The position numbers and the translations under genes were made by a program. A stretch of 64,000 nucleotides of DNA, taken from NCBI RefSeq assembly GCF_000482385.1, contig NZ_AXVD01000001.1, positions 310,001-374,000 of the forward strand. The letters are read 5' to 3'. Each line of letters starts with the position of its first letter. The stretch's first letter is position 1. The notes under the pieces are model-generated. The model was not told the origin of the DNA, did not search any database, and was given only the letters and a program-made list of their open reading frames with translations. Origin of the DNA: Nocardia sp. CNY236 (GTDB lineage: Bacteria; Actinomycetota; Actinomycetes; Mycobacteriales; Mycobacteriaceae). This document shows, one piece after another, positions 57,019-64,000 of the stretch.

Positions 57019-57106
57019 GGTGGCGTGTCCGAGCGGCCTAAGGAGCACGCCTCGAAAGCGTGTGAGGGGTAACCCCCCTCCGAGGGTTCAAATCCCTCCG
57101 CCACCG
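57019..57106 (+). tRNA. tRNA-Ser(CGA), attachment site of the downstream element
   Basis: Acceptor GGTGGCG/CGCCACC, anticodon loop CTCGAAA (CGA), long variable arm, T-loop TTCAAAT, discriminator G; CCA is not encoded. The integrase gene on the other strand runs into the tRNA and stops at 57038, so the integration core lies in its 3' part. Confidence 0.95.
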
Positions 57107-58360
57107 CTTCCGCCCATCATCTGTTCGCGCAGGTGATGGGCATTTTTCTTCGCCGCAGAACGCGCGGTCGGGGCTTGTGCCCACATTTTGCCCACATTCG
57201 GGTGTGCCCACATCGTGCCCACGCTCCGGCGGCGCGTATGCCTTGTCCATCGCGCTCGCTACCTTGTCGAGGTCTTCGTCGAACAGATCGGAGTAGGTGT
57301 TGAGCGTCTCCTTGGCGTCCTTGTGGCCGAGCAAGCGCGCCAGCGCCAGCACGTTCGCGCCCGCCGATACCGCCAGTGACGCGCAGGTATGGCGTAGGTC
57401 ATGAGGCGTGATCGGCTGCACCTCTGCCCGCTTCACGGCCCCTGTGAACCAACCATCAACGGTCTTCGGCCGCGGCAAGTACTTGGTCGCGTCGTCCGGA
57501 TGCAGGAACACCAGAGCATCGGGAGCGCGCCCCTTGATGTGCGCGACCAACTCGGTGAGGACGAACCGGGGCACCGGGACGCTACGAATCTCCTTGCCCT
57601 TGGTCGGCCCCTTGGCGTGGTCGACACCAAGTTGTACAGCGTTGTCGGCCACCGTAAGTCGGCCCCGGACGATATCAACGTCACGGACCCGCAATGCGAT
57701 CAGCTCACCCCAGCGCGGACCGCAGTAGGCCAGCATGAGCACCAAAAGGCGATGTTTACCAGCCTCTTTCGCTAGACGGGCCACGTCGTCGGACTTGAGG
57801 TAGACATGCCTCTTCATGGTCTTCGTCGGTAGCACTCGGGAGACGGTCTTGCCGCGTGCGAGATTCTTCGGCAGGAGCTTCTTGGTCTCGACCGCCGTAT
57901 CGAGGATGCTCGCGAGGACGCCGAATGCGCGGATAACCGTGGTCGCCCCGGCATTGATATCAGGCTTGCCTTTGGCCTCGGCGCGTTCCTGAGCGGCCAA
58001 GCGCATGTCAACGATCCAGTCCCGCACCGCATCCTGAGTCACGTCGCCGATGCGGACGCCGCCCCATCGCGGTTCGACATGTGTGCGCCATGCGGAGTCG
58101 AGAGTCCGATAGTTGGAGGGCGCGACGCTGGCCTTCTTCTCCTTCAACCAGTCGGGAGCCAGTTCGGCAACCGTGATGCGGCCCAGTGACGGCGCGATGT
58201 AGTCGCCGGTCATCTTCTTGACCTCGACCGTATTCAAGAACTGCTCGGCATCGCGCTTGCGCTTAAACCCGCGCTTGTCGGTCTGCTTTCCGTTGGGCAT
58301 GCGGTAGCGGACGCGGTACCGAGTGCCCGACTTGGTTTCGTACGACTCGACGCTCGCCAT
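57038..58360 (-). CDS. int: Tyrosine-family phage integrase
   Basis: A 440-residue integrase. An N-terminal arm-binding domain (GTRYRVRYRMPNGKQTDKRG), a core-binding domain (ITVAELAPDWLKEKKASVAP), and the catalytic domain with Arg in YCGPRWGELIALR, HDLRHT (His-x-x-Arg) and GHKDAKETLNTYSDLF (Tyr) are complete. The last 23 or so codons lie inside tRNA-Ser(CGA) on the opposite strand and pass through its terminator hairpin, so the C-terminal tail differs between attP and the integrated state. It overlaps no other phage gene; the repressor stop is 3 bases before its ATG. Confidence 0.93.
   Translation of the reverse strand: MASVESYETKSGTRYRVRYRMPNGKQTDKRGFKRKRDAEQFLNTVEVKKMTGDYIAPSLGRITVAELAPDWLKEKKASVAPSNYRTLDSAWRTHVEPRWGGVRIGDVTQDAVRDWIVDMRLAAQERAEAKGKPDINAGATTVIRAFGVLASILDTAVETKKLLPKNLARGKTVSRVLPTKTMKRHVYLKSDDVARLAKEAGKHRLLVLMLAYCGPRWGELIALRVRDVDIVRGRLTVADNAVQLGVDHAKGPTKGKEIRSVPVPRFVLTELVAHIKGRAPDALVFLHPDDATKYLPRPKTVDGWFTGAVKRAEVQPITPHDLRHTCASLAVSAGANVLALARLLGHKDAKETLNTYSDLFDEDLDKVASAMDKAYAPPERGHDVGTPECGQNVGTSPDRAFCGEEKCPSPARTDDGRKRWRRDLNPRRGVTPHTLSRRAP
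57112..57147 (+). terminator. Terminator of tRNA-Ser(CGA), inside the integrase frame
   Basis: GCCCATCATCTG / CAGGTGATGGGC (12-bp stem with one G-T pair), a 6-base loop, then ATTTTTC, starting 6 bases after the tRNA. It is a good intrinsic terminator for the tRNA, yet is read through antisense by the integrase gene, so the element appears to carry its own terminator for the tRNA. Confidence 0.8.
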
Positions 58361-58363
58361 CAG

Positions 58364-58903
58364 CTATCCCTCAATCGGTGCGTCGGGATCTCCGGCGCGC
58401 AGGTCTCGCAGCATCTTTTGGAACAATTCCGCCGTGTATTCACGGTGCCCTGTGCCGGGTACCTGCCCGAACTTCATGCCTTCGGTAGTCCAGCGGGGTA
58501 GTGCGTCGGCAATGAACTTCATTCCGTCGCGGACGTCGCGTTGATCTTCCGTTTTGCCGACATGCTCGATAGGCACCTCGAGGCTTAGCCACCCGAGGAT
58601 GTCCTGTGCCGGGCCTTCGATGCCGGTCGCGCTGACCGGATCGTCGCGTCGTGCGGCGTCTGGCATCAGCAATGTGGTGGGCGAGACCTCGAGCGCCACA
58701 GCAAGGGCCAAGAGGTCGTCGGCATCAACTCGCCGCTCTCCCGCTTCGATTCGAGAGAGGCCGAGCACTGGGATCTGCCGGTTGATGGAGTCCAGTCTGC
58801 GCGACAGTTCGGCATATGTGAGGTTGAGGCGCTTCCGGTGTCGGGCGACGTTCGCCCGGACGGCTTCACCGGTCGGTCCCAGTGGGTTCATTTTCGGAGC
58901 CAT
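58364..58903 (-). CDS. XRE-type phage repressor
   Basis: A 179-residue protein with an N-terminal helix-turn-helix (VRANVARHRKRLNLTYAELS, then IPVLGLSRIEAGERRVD), a linker, and a C-terminal helical part (WTTEGMKFGQVPGTGHREYT). It is the likely lysogeny repressor: it is divergent from the excisionase-like and replication genes and sits just before the integrase with a 3-base gap. No peptidase motif for RecA-type self-cleavage is seen. Its own promoter (58912-58940) would give an almost leaderless message. Confidence 0.8.
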   Translation of the reverse strand: MAPKMNPLGPTGEAVRANVARHRKRLNLTYAELSRRLDSINRQIPVLGLSRIEAGERRVDADDLLALAVALEVSPTTLLMPDAARRDDPVSATGIEGPAQDILGWLSLEVPIEHVGKTEDQRDVRDGMKFIADALPRWTTEGMKFGQVPGTGHREYTAELFQKMLRDLRAGDPDAPIEG

Positions 58904-58911
58904 GAGCGAAG

Positions 58912-58940
58912 ACTATCAAAATGATCTGACTATGTATCAA
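58912..58940 (-). promoter_or_regulatory. Promoter of the repressor-integrase operon
   Basis: On the minus strand TTGATA (58940-58935), a 17-base spacer and GATAGT (58917-58912) form a good sigma-70-type promoter. The start point would fall near 58905, two bases from the repressor ATG at 58903, implying a leaderless mRNA. Confidence 0.65.
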
Positions 58941-58959
58941 CTTGACTCCGATTCGTTCA

Positions 58960-58998
58960 ATCTGCATCATCGGACTGGAAGATCAAAGCGATGCAGAT
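58960..58998. promoter_or_regulatory. Inverted repeat in the repressor/excisionase intergenic region
   Basis: ATCTGCATC (58960-58968) and GATGCAGAT (58990-58998) are exact inverse copies 21 bases apart, between the divergent repressor and excisionase-like genes. The half site GATGC recurs at 59000-59004 in part. This is a candidate operator pair for the repressor. Confidence 0.5.
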
Positions 58999-59022
58999 AC
59001 GCATCATTTCGATAGGAATCGC

Positions 59023-59223
59023 ATGGCTGACGAACGCTTGACCCCGAAGCAGCTCGCCGGACGTTGGCATGGTCGGCCGAACGAGCGAACGCTCGCGCAG
59101 TGGCGCTATCTGCGGGTCGGCCCTGACTACATCAAGGTTGGCAAGCACGTCTTCTACCCGCTGTCCAGCGTTCTGGAGTTCGAGGAGCGGAACACCGTGA
59201 AGTGCAACGGCGTGGGCGCGTGA
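59023..59223 (+). CDS. Excisionase/AlpA-like helix-turn-helix protein
   Basis: A 66-residue MerR/AlpA-like DNA-binding protein: LTPKQLAGRWHGRPNERTLAQ, then WRYLRVGPDYIKVGKHVFY and PLSSVLEFEERN, the usual layout of small excisionases and AlpA activators. GGAA lies 6 bases before the ATG. It is the first rightward gene of the element and overlaps the primase-helicase gene by four bases (GTGA). It may direct excision or activate the replication operon, as AlpA does in satellites. Confidence 0.8.
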   Translation: MADERLTPKQLAGRWHGRPNERTLAQWRYLRVGPDYIKVGKHVFYPLSSVLEFEERNTVKCNGVGA

Positions 59224-61223
59224 GCGCAACCAGCGCATTCGAGCGCTTCGTCGATGCTTTGGGAGGCGCTGGCTGCAAGGTCACGGTCAAGGGGGACCGT
59301 GGCCGCGCCTCCGCGCCGGGCCACAGCCACGACGACGACGGAATCTCGTTCCGGCGCACCGAAGACGGTGTGATCTTCCACCCCTTCAATGCCGATCCTG
59401 ATGGCGTACTTGATTCTCTCGGGCTGTCCAAGGTCGATCTGTTCGACCGTCCGCGTACTCGCTACGACTACCCGGACGGCCGCCAGGTCATTCGCTTCTA
59501 CACCAGGGGAGGGAACAAGAAGACCTTCGCTCAGGGCGGGAAGAAGGAGGGCAAGGCCCTGTTCGGGTCCGACCGTCTCTCCGCCGACACTGACACGGTC
59601 ATCTATGTGGTGGAGGGTGAAAAGGATGTCGTTGCGGCCCGCGCGGCTGGTATCTACGCGGTAACGCAGAACCAGGGCGCGGACCATCCGCCGGGCAGGG
59701 CAGATTGGTCGCCGCTGGCCGACCGCACTGTGATCGTCGTCGCCGACCGAGACGACAAAGGCCGTGCTCGCGCCGACAAGGTCGCCAAACACCTTGTCGG
59801 ACTAGCGAAGTCGGTGACGGTCGCCGAGGTCAAGGCAGGTAAGGATCTGGCCGACCACATCGCCGCCGGGCATAGTGCGGAAGACCTTGTTGTGCTCGGT
59901 GAGGTGCGGCCCGCACGCAAGCTGAAGGTCACGCGCGGCTCCGAGGTGGCAGCCAAGCGGGTGCGGTGGGTCATGCCCGACTGGATGCCGGCCGGATCTC
60001 TCACCCTGCTCGCCGGGCGTGAAGGTCTCGGTAAGTCCACGATCGCGGCGCAGGTAGCGGCCGAGGTGACGTGCGGCGGACTGGCCGGAGGCGAGTGGTT
60101 CGGGCAGCCGCGCACCGTGATCTACCTGCACACCGAAGACAGCCGCGAACACACAGTCGCGCCCCGGCTCCGCGCCGCGGGTGCGGACATGTCGCGGGTG
60201 CTGTTCCTGGACGTGCAAACCGAGCACTCCGACGCCGGGGTGCTGTCGCTGCCATCGGATATCGCCATGCTCGACGGCGTCATCACCGCCGAGCGGGTGT
60301 CGCTAATCGTGCTGGACGCGGCCACCTCGGCCATGTCGGCGGAACTGTCGGGCAAGGACGACCGACAGGTGCGGCAGTTCCTCGAGCCACTGGCCCAGCT
60401 CGCCGCCCGGCGTGACTGTGTGGTGCTGGGCGTGTGCCACTTCGGCAAGCGCGACGGCAACGACACCGGGAAGTTGATCCTCGGCTCTATCGCATGGTCG
60501 CAGGTGGCCCGGTCGGTGCTCGCGGTCGCCCGCGACGACGAGGGCGGCAACCTGGTCGTGACGAACACCAAGGGCAACCTCGCCCCGCGTACCCGGTCCA
60601 TGGAAGCGGTGATCGAATCGACCACGGTCGCCACCGAGGACGGCCCGGCCGAAGTCGGTGCGATCCGCTGGTTGGGTGAGACCGACCGTGACGCCCGCGA
60701 ACTACTCGCCGGAGCTGCTGGCGCCCACGACGAGGACGAGAAGGCCGAGCGCTCGACGGCCGAGAGGTGGCTGCGGGACTACCTTGAGGCGGCCGGGTCG
60801 GCGAAGTCGGCCGACGCCAAACGCGACGGCGTCAAGGCCGGATTCTCCGACCGGACACTACAGCGGGCGCGCCGGAAACTGGGCGTGGAGATCTCCGACA
60901 GCGGCTATCCCCGCACCACCTATTGGCGCTTGCCTACCAGTGCTGCCACCGACACCGCCGACGCCCTCACACGTGGCACGATTGGCACGACTGGCACAAC
61001 TGAACCCGACCAGGGAAAACAGGGTGGCACGACTGAAGAGAATCCGCAGTCGTGCCAACCGCCCACACATGACACGACTGCGGCACAACCGGCCGACAAG
61101 TGCCCGGTGTGCGCGTACGCGCTCGGCGCCATCGCTGCTCGTGATGGTATCCACGCCGACTGTCGTGACCGAGCGGCCACCACCGATCATCAACTCCGGC
61201 TCGTCGGCGGGGGCGCGGCATGA
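59220..61223 (+). CDS. Primase-helicase replication protein (TOPRIM plus RepA-like ATPase)
   Basis: A 667-residue fusion. The N-terminal part lacks zinc-binding Cys but is primase-like (GISFRRTEDGVIFHPFNADP); a TOPRIM domain follows (VIYVVEGEKDVVAARAAG, then TVIVVADRDDKGRARADK). The second half is a RecA-fold ATPase: Walker A LAGREGLGKSTIAAQVAAEV, Walker B SLIVLDAATSAM, VVLGVCHFGKRDG. A linker with Gly-Thr repeats (residues about 585-640) and a small Cys pair (CPVCAYALG) end it. It should unwind and prime at the element's own origin; decamer repeats lie in its 3' end. GTG start coupled to the gene before. Confidence 0.88.
   Translation: MSATSAFERFVDALGGAGCKVTVKGDRGRASAPGHSHDDDGISFRRTEDGVIFHPFNADPDGVLDSLGLSKVDLFDRPRTRYDYPDGRQVIRFYTRGGNKKTFAQGGKKEGKALFGSDRLSADTDTVIYVVEGEKDVVAARAAGIYAVTQNQGADHPPGRADWSPLADRTVIVVADRDDKGRARADKVAKHLVGLAKSVTVAEVKAGKDLADHIAAGHSAEDLVVLGEVRPARKLKVTRGSEVAAKRVRWVMPDWMPAGSLTLLAGREGLGKSTIAAQVAAEVTCGGLAGGEWFGQPRTVIYLHTEDSREHTVAPRLRAAGADMSRVLFLDVQTEHSDAGVLSLPSDIAMLDGVITAERVSLIVLDAATSAMSAELSGKDDRQVRQFLEPLAQLAARRDCVVLGVCHFGKRDGNDTGKLILGSIAWSQVARSVLAVARDDEGGNLVVTNTKGNLAPRTRSMEAVIESTTVATEDGPAEVGAIRWLGETDRDARELLAGAAGAHDEDEKAERSTAERWLRDYLEAAGSAKSADAKRDGVKAGFSDRTLQRARRKLGVEISDSGYPRTTYWRLPTSAATDTADALTRGTIGTTGTTEPDQGKQGGTTEENPQSCQPPTHDTTAAQPADKCPVCAYALGAIAARDGIHADCRDRAATTDHQLRLVGGGAA
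60975..61080. repeat. Iteron-like GGCACGACTG decamers, candidate replication origin
   Basis: GGCACGATTG (60975), GGCACGACTG (60984), GGCACAACTG (60993), GGCACGACTG (61026), its inverse CAGTCGTGCC (61047-61056) and GACACGACTG (61071): six copies with at most one mismatch in 106 bases. The pair at 61025-61057 forms an 11-bp stem. They lie in the 3' end of the primase-helicase gene. Confidence 0.6.
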
Positions 61224-61597
61224 CCTTGCGCCCCTGCCTGGAATGCGGTGAGCCCAGCGAAGCCGCCCGCTGCCCGGATCACGCACGTACCGATGACCGG
61301 GTGCGTGACCGTGATCATGTGCATTGGAACGGTGCCCGGTGGAAGCGGTTGTCGCGTCGGCTGCGGCAGATCCAGCCGTGGTGCACATCGTGCGGTGCCA
61401 CCGACGAGTTGACCGTCGACCACATCGAACCGGTCTGCGCACGCCCGGACCTGGCCTACGAGCTGGGCAACCTTCAGGTGCTGTGCAAGCGGTGCAACAG
61501 CCGCAAGGGCACCAGGGGGATAGCCCCTGCACGGGTGGGTTCTCCGTCCCCGGGGCAGGCGGAGTTCGCGTTACACACCGTGCGGGGCCGGTCATGA
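61220..61597 (+). CDS. HNH endonuclease
   Basis: A 125-residue HNH nuclease. Zinc Cys pairs are in WCTSCGA and CKRCNSRKG, and the catalytic motif in ELTVDHIEPVCARPDLAYE followed by LGNLQVLCKRCN. An extra N-terminal Cys pair (CLECGEPSEAARCPDH) is present. Phage HNH proteins beside terminase genes stimulate terminase cleavage during DNA packaging. It overlaps the preceding and following genes by four bases each (ATGA). Confidence 0.92.
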   Translation: MTLRPCLECGEPSEAARCPDHARTDDRVRDRDHVHWNGARWKRLSRRLRQIQPWCTSCGATDELTVDHIEPVCARPDLAYELGNLQVLCKRCNSRKGTRGIAPARVGSPSPGQAEFALHTVRGRS

Positions 61598-63060
61598 GGG
61601 CGGGGCCGAAGGGGCAGATCACCGCCGAGCCCCTGGATTTCAAGGGCTGGCCGCGTGACCGGGCCAAGCGCCGCGAGCGGTTCATCAAGACGTATTTGGT
61701 CACCCCGCGCGGGCACGGTGCCGGAAACCCGTTCGTGCTGCGTGGTTTTCAGTCCGAGATCGTGCGGGGCGCGTTCGCTCCCGGTGTCCGTACCGCCTTG
61801 GTGTCGATTCCGCGCGCGAACGGCAAGACCATGCTCGCCGCCGCGCTGGCGCTGGCGGAACTGTTCGTCGGCCCGCCCTCGGCTGAAGTCCTCGTCGTCG
61901 CCTCCGATCAGCGCCAGGCCAACATCACCCTGCGGTACGCGCGCCGGATGGTGGAGCTGAACCCGGTATTGGCGGAGCGGGTGCAGGTTTACGCCGACCG
62001 GCTGTATGTGCCGGAGAACGATGCGACCTTGTTGCCGCTGCCCGCTGAACCGGGTGCGCTGCACGGGCATGACCCGTCGCTACAGATCGTCGACGAGTTG
62101 CATGTGGTCACCGAGCAGGTGTGGGAGGCCGTCACGTCGGTAGCGGGTAAGCGCCCGGAATCGTTGACCCTGGCCATCTCCACTCCGGCGGGTAGCCCGG
62201 ACTCGATCATGTGGCGCCTGGTCGAACACGGCCGTGCCGGGGACGATCCGGCGTTCTACTTCCGCGAGTTCGCCGCCCCGCCCGGGTGCGCGGTCGACGA
62301 CCGGCAGGCGTGGCGGATCGCGAATCCGGCCCTGTCGTGCAAGGACCCGTTCCTGTCCGAGGACGGACTCGAGGCAGCGCGGAAGACGATCCGGGAACCG
62401 GTGTTCCGGCAACTGCGGTTGGGCCAGTGGGTGACCGGTGCCGAAGCGTGGTTGCCGTGGGGAGCGTGGGCCGCGTGCGCTGTCGAACGTGACAGGCTGA
62501 CACTCTCGACGAACAAGGCCCGCGTGGTGCTGGCCTTCGACGGATCGGCGTCGGGGGACTCTACGGCGCTGGTGGGCTGCACCCTGGACGGGCACCTGTG
62601 GGTAGAAGGGTTGTGGGAGAACCAGAACGATCCCCGCTGGCGGGTACCACGCGCCGACGTCGACAACGCTGTCGCGGTCGCATTCGACACCTATGACGTG
62701 GTGGAGCTGGCGTGCGATCCGTGGGGGTGGCGCAGCGAAATCGAGACATGGGCCGCCCGGCACGGGGAGAAGCGGGTGCTGGAGTGGAATACCGCGCACG
62801 CGGCGCGGATGGCACCGGCCACCGACCGGTTCTATCAAGCCGTGGTCACCCGGACCATGACCCATGACGGTGATCCGCGCCTGGCCGCGCATATCGCGCA
62901 CTGCGTCGCCAAACCCACCCCGATGGGAGACCTCGTCTCCAAGGACAAGCGCGGCTCGCCCCGCAAGATCGACGCCGCTGTCGCCGCCATCGTCGCCTTC
63001 GACCGCGCCGCATGGCATTCCACGAAATCCAGCAAGAAACGAGTGAGGAGTTTCCAATGA
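61594..63060 (+). CDS. terL: Phage terminase large subunit
   Basis: A 488-residue packaging motor. The ATPase domain has FQSEIVRGAFAPGVRTALVS leading to the P-loop variant IPRANGKTMLAAALAL, Walker B LQIVDELHVV, and the coupling motif LTLAISTPAGS. The nuclease domain starts at VVLAFDGSASGDSTALVG (metal Asp) and has further acidic residues near DPWGWRSEIETWAARHGEK. The ATG overlaps the HNH stop by four bases. No terminase small subunit is recognised upstream; the HNH gene takes its usual place. Confidence 0.93.
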   Translation: MRAGPKGQITAEPLDFKGWPRDRAKRRERFIKTYLVTPRGHGAGNPFVLRGFQSEIVRGAFAPGVRTALVSIPRANGKTMLAAALALAELFVGPPSAEVLVVASDQRQANITLRYARRMVELNPVLAERVQVYADRLYVPENDATLLPLPAEPGALHGHDPSLQIVDELHVVTEQVWEAVTSVAGKRPESLTLAISTPAGSPDSIMWRLVEHGRAGDDPAFYFREFAAPPGCAVDDRQAWRIANPALSCKDPFLSEDGLEAARKTIREPVFRQLRLGQWVTGAEAWLPWGAWAACAVERDRLTLSTNKARVVLAFDGSASGDSTALVGCTLDGHLWVEGLWENQNDPRWRVPRADVDNAVAVAFDTYDVVELACDPWGWRSEIETWAARHGEKRVLEWNTAHAARMAPATDRFYQAVVTRTMTHDGDPRLAAHIAHCVAKPTPMGDLVSKDKRGSPRKIDAAVAAIVAFDRAAWHSTKSSKKRVRSFQ

Positions 63061-64000
63061 ACGATCTACTGACCCGGCTGCTCCAGCGGCTCGACGAACC
63101 CGCCGCCCGCTATGCGGAATTGGACCGCTACTACACCGGCCGACAACCTCTTGCGTTCCTGTCGCCGGAGGCGAAAACGGCGCTGGGCAACCGGTTCGGC
63201 CGCATGGCCTCCAACATTCCTCGCCTGGCGGTGACCGCGCTGGCCGAACGGCTGCGGGTCACCGGATTCACCGGCGCGCAGGTGTGGGAGGACTGGACTC
63301 GCAACGACCTCGACCAACTGGCCGGAGTCGCCCACCGCGAAGCACTGCTGCTCGGGGACGCCTACGTGATCGTGTGGGCCGACCAGTACGGGCGCCCGAA
63401 GGTGACTGTGGAATCTGCCAAGCAGGTTGCTGCCCTGACCGATCCGGGAACTCGGCGCATCACCCACGCGGTGAAACGGTGGGAGACCGATACCACTACC
63501 GAGGCAGTCCTGTATGGGCCGACTGAGATCCTGCGGCTGCGCGCCGAGCAGACGGGCGCCACCACGGCAGGGTTCCGGGTGGTCGAAACGCTGGCGAACC
63601 CGCTCGGTGTCGTCCCGGTGGTGCGGCTGCGCAACACCGACCGGTTGTTGGAGGAGGGGTGCAGCGAGATCGAGGATCTGAAGCCGTTGGTGGACGCGCT
63701 CAACAAGTCGCTGGCCGACATGATGGTCACTAGTGAGTACGTCGGCCGGCCGCGCCGCTGGGCCACCGGTATCGAGCTGGAGGAAGACGACGCCGGCCGC
63801 GCGGTGAACCCGATCCCCGAAGGCAACCGGGCCATGATCAGCGAATCCGCCGACTCGAAATTCGGGCAGTTGGCCGCTGCGGACCTGTCCGGCTACGAAG
63901 CGTCGGTGCGGGTACTGCTCGGTCAGATCATGGCCGTGTCCGCGCTGCCCGCCCACTACGTCGGCGTGTTCACCGACAACCCTGCCAGCGCCGATGCCCT
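63057..64000 (+). CDS. Phage portal protein, N-terminal part
   Basis: About 315 codons of a portal protein are visible; the gene runs off the right edge. The N-terminus (RYAELDRYYTGRQPLAFLSP) and VEDWTRNDLDQLAGVAHREALLLGD-type segment place it in the SPP1 gp6-like group common in actinophages. The portal forms the ring through which TerL pumps DNA. It starts with an ATG overlapping the terL stop by four bases. Confidence 0.88.
   Translation, partial: MNDLLTRLLQRLDEPAARYAELDRYYTGRQPLAFLSPEAKTALGNRFGRMASNIPRLAVTALAERLRVTGFTGAQVWEDWTRNDLDQLAGVAHREALLLGDAYVIVWADQYGRPKVTVESAKQVAALTDPGTRRITHAVKRWETDTTTEAVLYGPTEILRLRAEQTGATTAGFRVVETLANPLGVVPVVRLRNTDRLLEEGCSEIEDLKPLVDALNKSLADMMVTSEYVGRPRRWATGIELEEDDAGRAVNPIPEGNRAMISESADSKFGQLAAADLSGYEASVRVLLGQIMAVSALPAHYVGVFTDNPASADA

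Follow-up and report, generated by a model that had tools for sequence, protein, structure and literature searches.

We analysed a stretch of 64,000 nucleotides (hereafter the window, C1:310001-374000) of the genome of Nocardia sp. CNY236, which is assembled as 5.3 Mb in 74 contigs, and contig C1 was extended past the window end. A small element lies at the right end of the window in a tRNA-Ser(CGA) gene, where a preliminary description of this DNA had placed it. Its left attachment (att) core, attL, is the final 22 bp of the tRNA gene (57086-57107); an exact copy of this 3' end, attR, lies beyond the window (C1:377892-377913), and the chance of such a repeat within 20 kb is about 1e-9 if equal base use is assumed. 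From att to att the element measures 10,828 bp, 3.9 kb of it beyond the window end, and not the more than 35 kb that the same description had associated with an ordinary prophage.

The integrase and likely repressor genes point leftward, and a rightward run leads from an excisionase-like open reading frame (ORF) to the portal gene (Table 1). This layout had been noted before, and family matches bear it out for every gene except the excisionase-like ORF, which matches no Pfam or PHROG family. In classical phage-inducible chromosomal islands (PICIs) resembling the Staphylococcus aureus pathogenicity islands, an AlpA/Xis-type activator stands next to the repressor, and it is this position that the small ORF occupies. 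The 4-bp overlaps said to join all rightward genes are present at the four junctions from this ORF to the portal gene if the primase starts at the GTG at 59220 and the portal at the ATG at 63057; with the longest ORFs, two of the four are longer. After the portal gene come, as had been anticipated for the remaining part, capsid genes: a scaffold, an HK97-type capsid and a head-tail adaptor (identified from its predicted structure). Three small or cargo ORFs then precede attR, namely two tiny reverse-strand ORFs (50 and 65 amino acids) and a regulator of 372 amino acids with a helix-turn-helix (HTH) and TPR part, which matches one PADLOC HTH model weakly (2.9e-5). Among the 13 ORFs called up to attR, no tail, lysis or recombination family was matched in Pfam or PHROG; nor did these searches match a head maturation protease or detect a head-closure family, of which relatives do have matches. 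The called ORFs include no separate gene for a small terminase subunit (TerS); the HNH ORF matches phrog_4581, named terminase small subunit, over its HNH part (6.6e-7), far below the HNH families.

Table 1. Features of the Nocardia element and its integration site within the window
Feature	Position	Strand	Basis or remark
tRNA-Ser(CGA), integration target	57019..57107	+	ARAGORN
Tyrosine integrase, 3' end overlapping the tRNA gene	57038..58360	-	PF00589 8.1e-20; phrog_1 2.2e-66
Cro/C1-type HTH protein, likely repressor	58364..58903	-	HTH_3 1.7e-7; phrog_11503 1.2e-24
Small excisionase-like ORF, function by position only	58942..59223	+	34-42% identity to same-place ORFs of two relatives
Primase/helicase, Toprim and AAA_25	59220..61223	+	AAA_25 2.8e-37, Toprim_3 2e-4; phrog_10729 5.6e-38
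HNH endonuclease	61220..61597	+	PF01844 2.4e-10; phrog_144 7.5e-19
Predicted cos motif CAGGCGGAGTTCGCGTTACACACC, within HNH 3' end	61556..61579	+	Predicted cut right before GGC at 61558
Terminase large subunit (TerL)	61594..63060	+	TerL_ATPase 1.6e-15, TerL_nuclease 5.8e-12; phrog_9 9e-89
Portal, SPP1 gp6 type	63057..64000, end 295 bases past window (L003:8296)	+	PF05133 2.5e-39; phrog_104 5.8e-104

Judged by shared genes, the Nocardia element is a member of a large actinobacterial family. Within the genus (150 genomes searched, that of the element among them), three other genomes carry closely related capsids of 53-68% identity, G122, G137 and G136 (two copies), and the remaining matching genomes hold remote capsids only. 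At a cut-off of E 1e-30, which more distant members would escape, a capsid profile found matches in 32 of the 401 genomes searched in the taxonomic family, spread over 10 of 31 genera, and in 4 of 396 genomes sampled from the phylum, the own genome being counted each time. A scan of named genomes gave six loci, in Skermania, Gordonia, Mycobacterium, Nocardia, Brevibacterium and Citricoccus. HNH, terL, portal, scaffold, major capsid protein (MCP) and adaptor genes are common to all ten loci compared (nine distinct, L036 being the same as L042), and integrase, primase and even terminase vary: the capsid and TerL identities are 83% and 38% for the Skermania relative, and 68% and 87% for L035 of N. 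transvalensis. All seven loci with a tRNA gene near the integrase (six distinct elements) have tRNA 3'-end repeats 10.5-11.2 kb apart. Two of six further loci have clear bounding repeats, L035 (23 bp, recognised by eye as the end of a glutamine-synthetase-like gene) and L100 (47 bp); none was found at the likely ends of L037, L038, L044 and L121, and L037 and L044 carry what by eye are serine-recombinase-like ORFs. Eight distinct elements bounded by direct repeats span 10.3-11.2 kb.

Metagenomic relatives were drawn from IMG/VR in three scans. The capsid scan gave 48 contigs, 46 of them with the module (L091 and L092 were dropped from the counts for want of it), the TerL scan gave 42 loci, partly on the same contigs, and a scan with a second capsid group gave 152 relatives, from which 79 loci were kept. 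In the first two scans, all six core genes are present in 65 of 77 contigs (median available length 10.3 kb), and the detected core genes follow the order HNH-TerL-portal-scaffold-capsid-adaptor in 76 of them. The contig ends less than 2 kb from the adaptor in 59 of the 71 adaptor-bearing contigs; 12 extend more than 2 kb to the right. Flanking ORFs sampled in L050, L100, L121, L217, L250 and L255 belong to host-like, transposase or second-element families, some having no match; L052, L064, L080, L103, L111, L113 and L114, among the 12, lay outside this flank survey. The third scan (70 new contigs, outside the count of 77) yielded unusual gene orders in L219, L230, L233, L239, L241, L242, L243, L259 and L261; in L241 and L242 the HNH-terL-portal block runs opposite to the capsid gene.

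The HNH/terL junction carries a conserved motif, which we predict to be the cos site. The motif, aAGGCgcAGtttGCGTTACACACC, was obtained by expectation-maximisation on 31 HNH/terL junctions, and in the Nocardia element its best place, at the end of the HNH gene, scores 19.1 against 5.7 for the runner-up. Of 71 held-out contigs given, 49 were usable, and in 32 the best match of the whole contig fell at the junction, where 0.93 was expected; for clusters without a training member the junction was matched in 26 of 42, held-out L042 resembling a training junction. With the training set included, 98 of 128 elements have a match, 86 inside HNH, 11 past its stop and one across it. TTA is in the HNH frame through the motif in 32 cases and in another frame in 16; in the terL, portal and MCP genes, 0.55% of leucine codons are TTA. 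Conservation of an HNH C terminus was rejected as the explanation, because the 86 matches within HNH use two main reading frames, with 11 more located past the stop.

Certain metagenomic contigs begin at or near this motif. Of 141 family contigs in which terL is forward, 23 lack an HNH ahead of it. The start of seven of these lies 33-50 bp upstream of terL (L123, L124, L219 and L256 at 33, L248 at 35, L120 at 44, L259 at 50); the other 16 start at scattered places between 1,897 bp upstream and 1,225 bp downstream of the terL start. Since L120 and L219 are akin, as are L123, L124 and L256, the cos-proximal starts represent about four lineages. L120 (9,847 bp) and L219 (10,073 bp) start exactly at the motif GGC with clear scores, and their order, from terL to the adaptor and on to integrase, primase and HNH, is that expected after circularisation; each whole contig holds one tRNA-3'-end-like sequence, between adaptor and integrase, and L123 and L256 hold one between MCP and integrase. 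L248 likewise starts at the GGC, with a weak score, and the start of L259 has no clear motif score. An integrase to the right of the adaptor is also found in L059, L060 and L233. At the other end, the contig stops 12 bp after the HNH match in L120, 15 in L219, 34 in L233, 90 in L259 and 138 in L243. Compared by eye with the integrated L121 and L230, L120 and L219 seem to lack some 10-11 nucleotides between contig end and contig start, as would happen if library preparation had removed a 3' overhang. L239, with permuted order and a direct terminal repeat of at least 87 bp, is probably a circle. Rotation of circular contigs to terL by the database is disfavoured as the origin of these starts, as the reverse storage of L120 and L248 and the partial state of L123 and L124 argue against it.

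We consider it highly probable that the 10.8-kb Nocardia element is a capsid-forming satellite, packaging its own DNA from the predicted cos and needing a helper phage for tails and lysis. That it is a capsid-forming satellite and not a complete prophage was the proposal of the preliminary description, and it agrees with the capsid genes found up to attR, the lack of any tail, lysis or recombination family there and the equally bounded relatives. Having its own packaging and head genes and no recognised tail or lysis genes, the element likely relies on tails from helper phages for its spread; its helper dependence and its induction are what we infer from this gene content. The C1-type repressor would silence the element until a helper signal arrives, upon which it would be excised in circular form by the integrase together with the excisionase-like protein; the joined-end order of such a circle is seen in metagenomic relatives. 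The primase/helicase, judging by its domains, likely replicates it. HNH and TerL would then cut at the motif at 61556-61579, a site backed by its conservation and by the contig ends of relatives, and fill a small procapsid of scaffold and capsid. Finally, the ring of the adaptor would attach to the portal, and head closure, tail and lysis would have to come from the helper, given that no head-closure protein was detected in the element itself.

Several points weigh against this interpretation. The element is known from its sequence, from which particle, induction and helper are predicted; neither a head protease nor a separate TerS was detected, and the two tiny ORFs right of the adaptor match no PADLOC model and no family. 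The motif test failed in 17 of the 49 held-out contigs, the match at the start of L248 is weak (5.6, against 5.4 elsewhere), and the starts of L243, L123, L124 and L256 align with the motif by eye only. In their capsids, the cos-ended contigs form part of a more distant group (the L120 MCP is 47% identical to that of the window element), contig ends can arise from assembly, and IMG/VR provirus boundaries are predictions. Lastly, the tRNA-3'-end pattern was present in four of 11 joined regions searched, the seven others having none.

Three other explanations have to be considered. A decayed and no longer mobile prophage, from which deletions removed the tail and lysis genes, appears very unlikely. 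Decay does occur at this site, as directly right of attR lies a broken related relic with a capsid C terminus, a frame-split adaptor and two tiny ORFs. However, the called ORFs of the element are open, and a dN/dS of 0.15-0.26 for terL, portal, MCP and HNH (0.07 for the HTH-TPR gene; ten pairwise comparisons) shows purifying selection on its head and packaging genes. Moreover, eight distinct elements at different sites show the same bounded anatomy of 10.3-11.2 kb, and independent deletions would not have led to one end point again and again. It is, we think, scarcely more credible, and if anything less so, that the element is a domesticated island whose heads or packaging proteins serve against phages instead of for spread. 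PICIs do interfere with their helpers (PMC6092414), and homologues of HmaB and HmaC of the Hma defence system lie on the attR side; yet integrase, repressor and packaging genes are all retained, relatives with exchanged integrases occur across several genera, and metagenomic relatives are found in excised gene order. The two roles, interference and spread, are compatible. Least probable of all is a fully autonomous small phage with unrecognised tail and lysis genes, for which the three non-head ORFs right of the adaptor, two of them without family match, might be invoked, but two tiny ORFs and an HTH regulator leave no space for a tape measure, tail tube and tip.

The satellite reading invites comparison with capsid-forming PICIs (cf-PICIs). 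As described in PMC10690885, these are islands with HNH, TerL, portal, capsid and connector genes and no tail genes, and are expected, like the Nocardia element, to take tails from a helper; that description includes a head maturation protease and TerS. The Nocardia element likewise has repeat-bounded integration with an integrase, a gene for a primase/helicase (an activity assumed from its domains), HNH, TerL, portal and MCP, a connector, and no tail or lysis genes; by description, it differs in having no detected head protease or separate TerS and in having a separate scaffold-like gene. We therefore regard it as a variant that would work like a cf-PICI, not as a strict member. A complete prophage would have tens of kb between its att sites, along with genes for tail and lysis; the element has 10.8 kb and no match to a tail family. 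The MulchRoom and MiniFlayer satellites of Streptomyces also have terminase, portal, scaffold, capsid, adaptor and HNH genes, and MulchRoom tails are thought to be helper-derived; they differ by TerS, direct terminal repeats, no obvious replicase and virulent helpers, and that account does not regard them as direct relatives of predicted Actinomycetota PICIs (PMC10690885).

Candidate PICIs of actinobacteria have already been published for Mycobacterium (PMC10654092), so that this kind of element is known. These candidates and phiRv1/phiRv2, the latter likened here by description only, share an integrase and a capsid gene, some having helicase, terminase and scaffold; their tyrosine integrases use tRNA genes and their serine integrases other places, and it has been proposed that they can be mobilised. 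L041, the relative from Mycobacterium, may already figure among them. The passages of that account dealing with the candidates give no packaging site or excised forms. Among the papers listed by a literature search, there was no Nocardia case and no mapped actinobacterial satellite cos. New here are the predicted cos motif at the HNH/terL junction, the metagenomic relatives in excised order, several of which start at or near it, and one probably circular contig.

Evidence on helpers was sought among phages and in the same genome. Contig C16 carries two tape-measure matches (PF10145), one of them adjoined by TerL (27%) and capsid (25-27%) matches; this prophage, whose other genes are named by position, is a candidate helper. 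Among the phage matches listed, the best reach about 30% for MCP, 37% for portal and 33-35% for TerL, and the adaptor and scaffold had no phage match by sequence. In L041, the head-closure protein is 47% identical to gp10 of mycobacteriophage Avani, and eight other proteins tested from this relative did not match Avani. Avani (NC_023698.1) is a full phage with tail and lysis genes and has a comparable order, HNH-TerS-TerL-portal-protease-scaffold-MCP-adaptor-adaptor, its TerL being annotated as hypothetical and named by position. Its MCP and first adaptor matched none of 158 family contigs, and its portal matched nine weakly. Of five relatives, the head-closure protein of L041 matches a phage strongly, that of L044 weakly, and those of L040 (from Gordonia sihwensis NBRC 108236), L039 and L063 not at all, so that connector swapping rests on one clear case.

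It is conceivable, and we put it forward as a tentative proposal that is somewhat easier to doubt than to accept, that minimal self-encapsidating satellites exist throughout the phylum: they would have monomeric genomes of 9-11 kb, their own conserved cos in or beside HNH with 3' overhangs of about 10 nucleotides, no separate TerS and in some cases no head protease, and would adapt to helpers by swapping the tail-facing connector only, as in the Mycobacterium member with an Avani-like head-closure protein and an unrelated head. The analysis brings scattered actinobacterial candidates together as one family that can be recognised and whose packaging site can be tested, and the many sequenced actinophages offer a pool of candidate helpers. 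If confirmed, the family would show a satellite keeping its own head while matching the tails of different helpers.

Some further observations concern the integration site and individual relatives. The 3' end of the integrase gene is antisense to the tRNA (57038-57107), which places the attachment core within the integrase ORF, and the C terminus of the integrase may change upon excision. The relic right of attR (L003:12274-13128, window frame 68273-69127) comprises a capsid C terminus (91%), an adaptor split between two frames (91-93%) and both tiny ORFs; a further HTH-TPR regulator ORF lies near it (L003:12944-14560), followed outside the element by the HmaC (L003:15082-18309) and HmaB (L003:18039 to L004:1936) homologues. 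A search with the element's own right flank gave no usable empty site; in L145, from a related Nocardia, N. transvalensis right-flank sequence begins about 0.5 kb after the tRNA, and two others match only farther into the flank. Another Nocardia, L190 (G124:C1:2194536-2204403), has a tRNA-Ser 3'-end copy 9.9 kb downstream of the tRNA, which suggests that a further small element sits there. In L041, a gene located after that for the portal weakly matches a protease or VG15 family. The capsid match in L085-L090 spans about 1.1 kb compared with 0.84 kb, so that about 95 extra residues seem present, and L121 and L230 appear to be two related serine-recombinase elements in tandem on one 26-kb metagenome contig.

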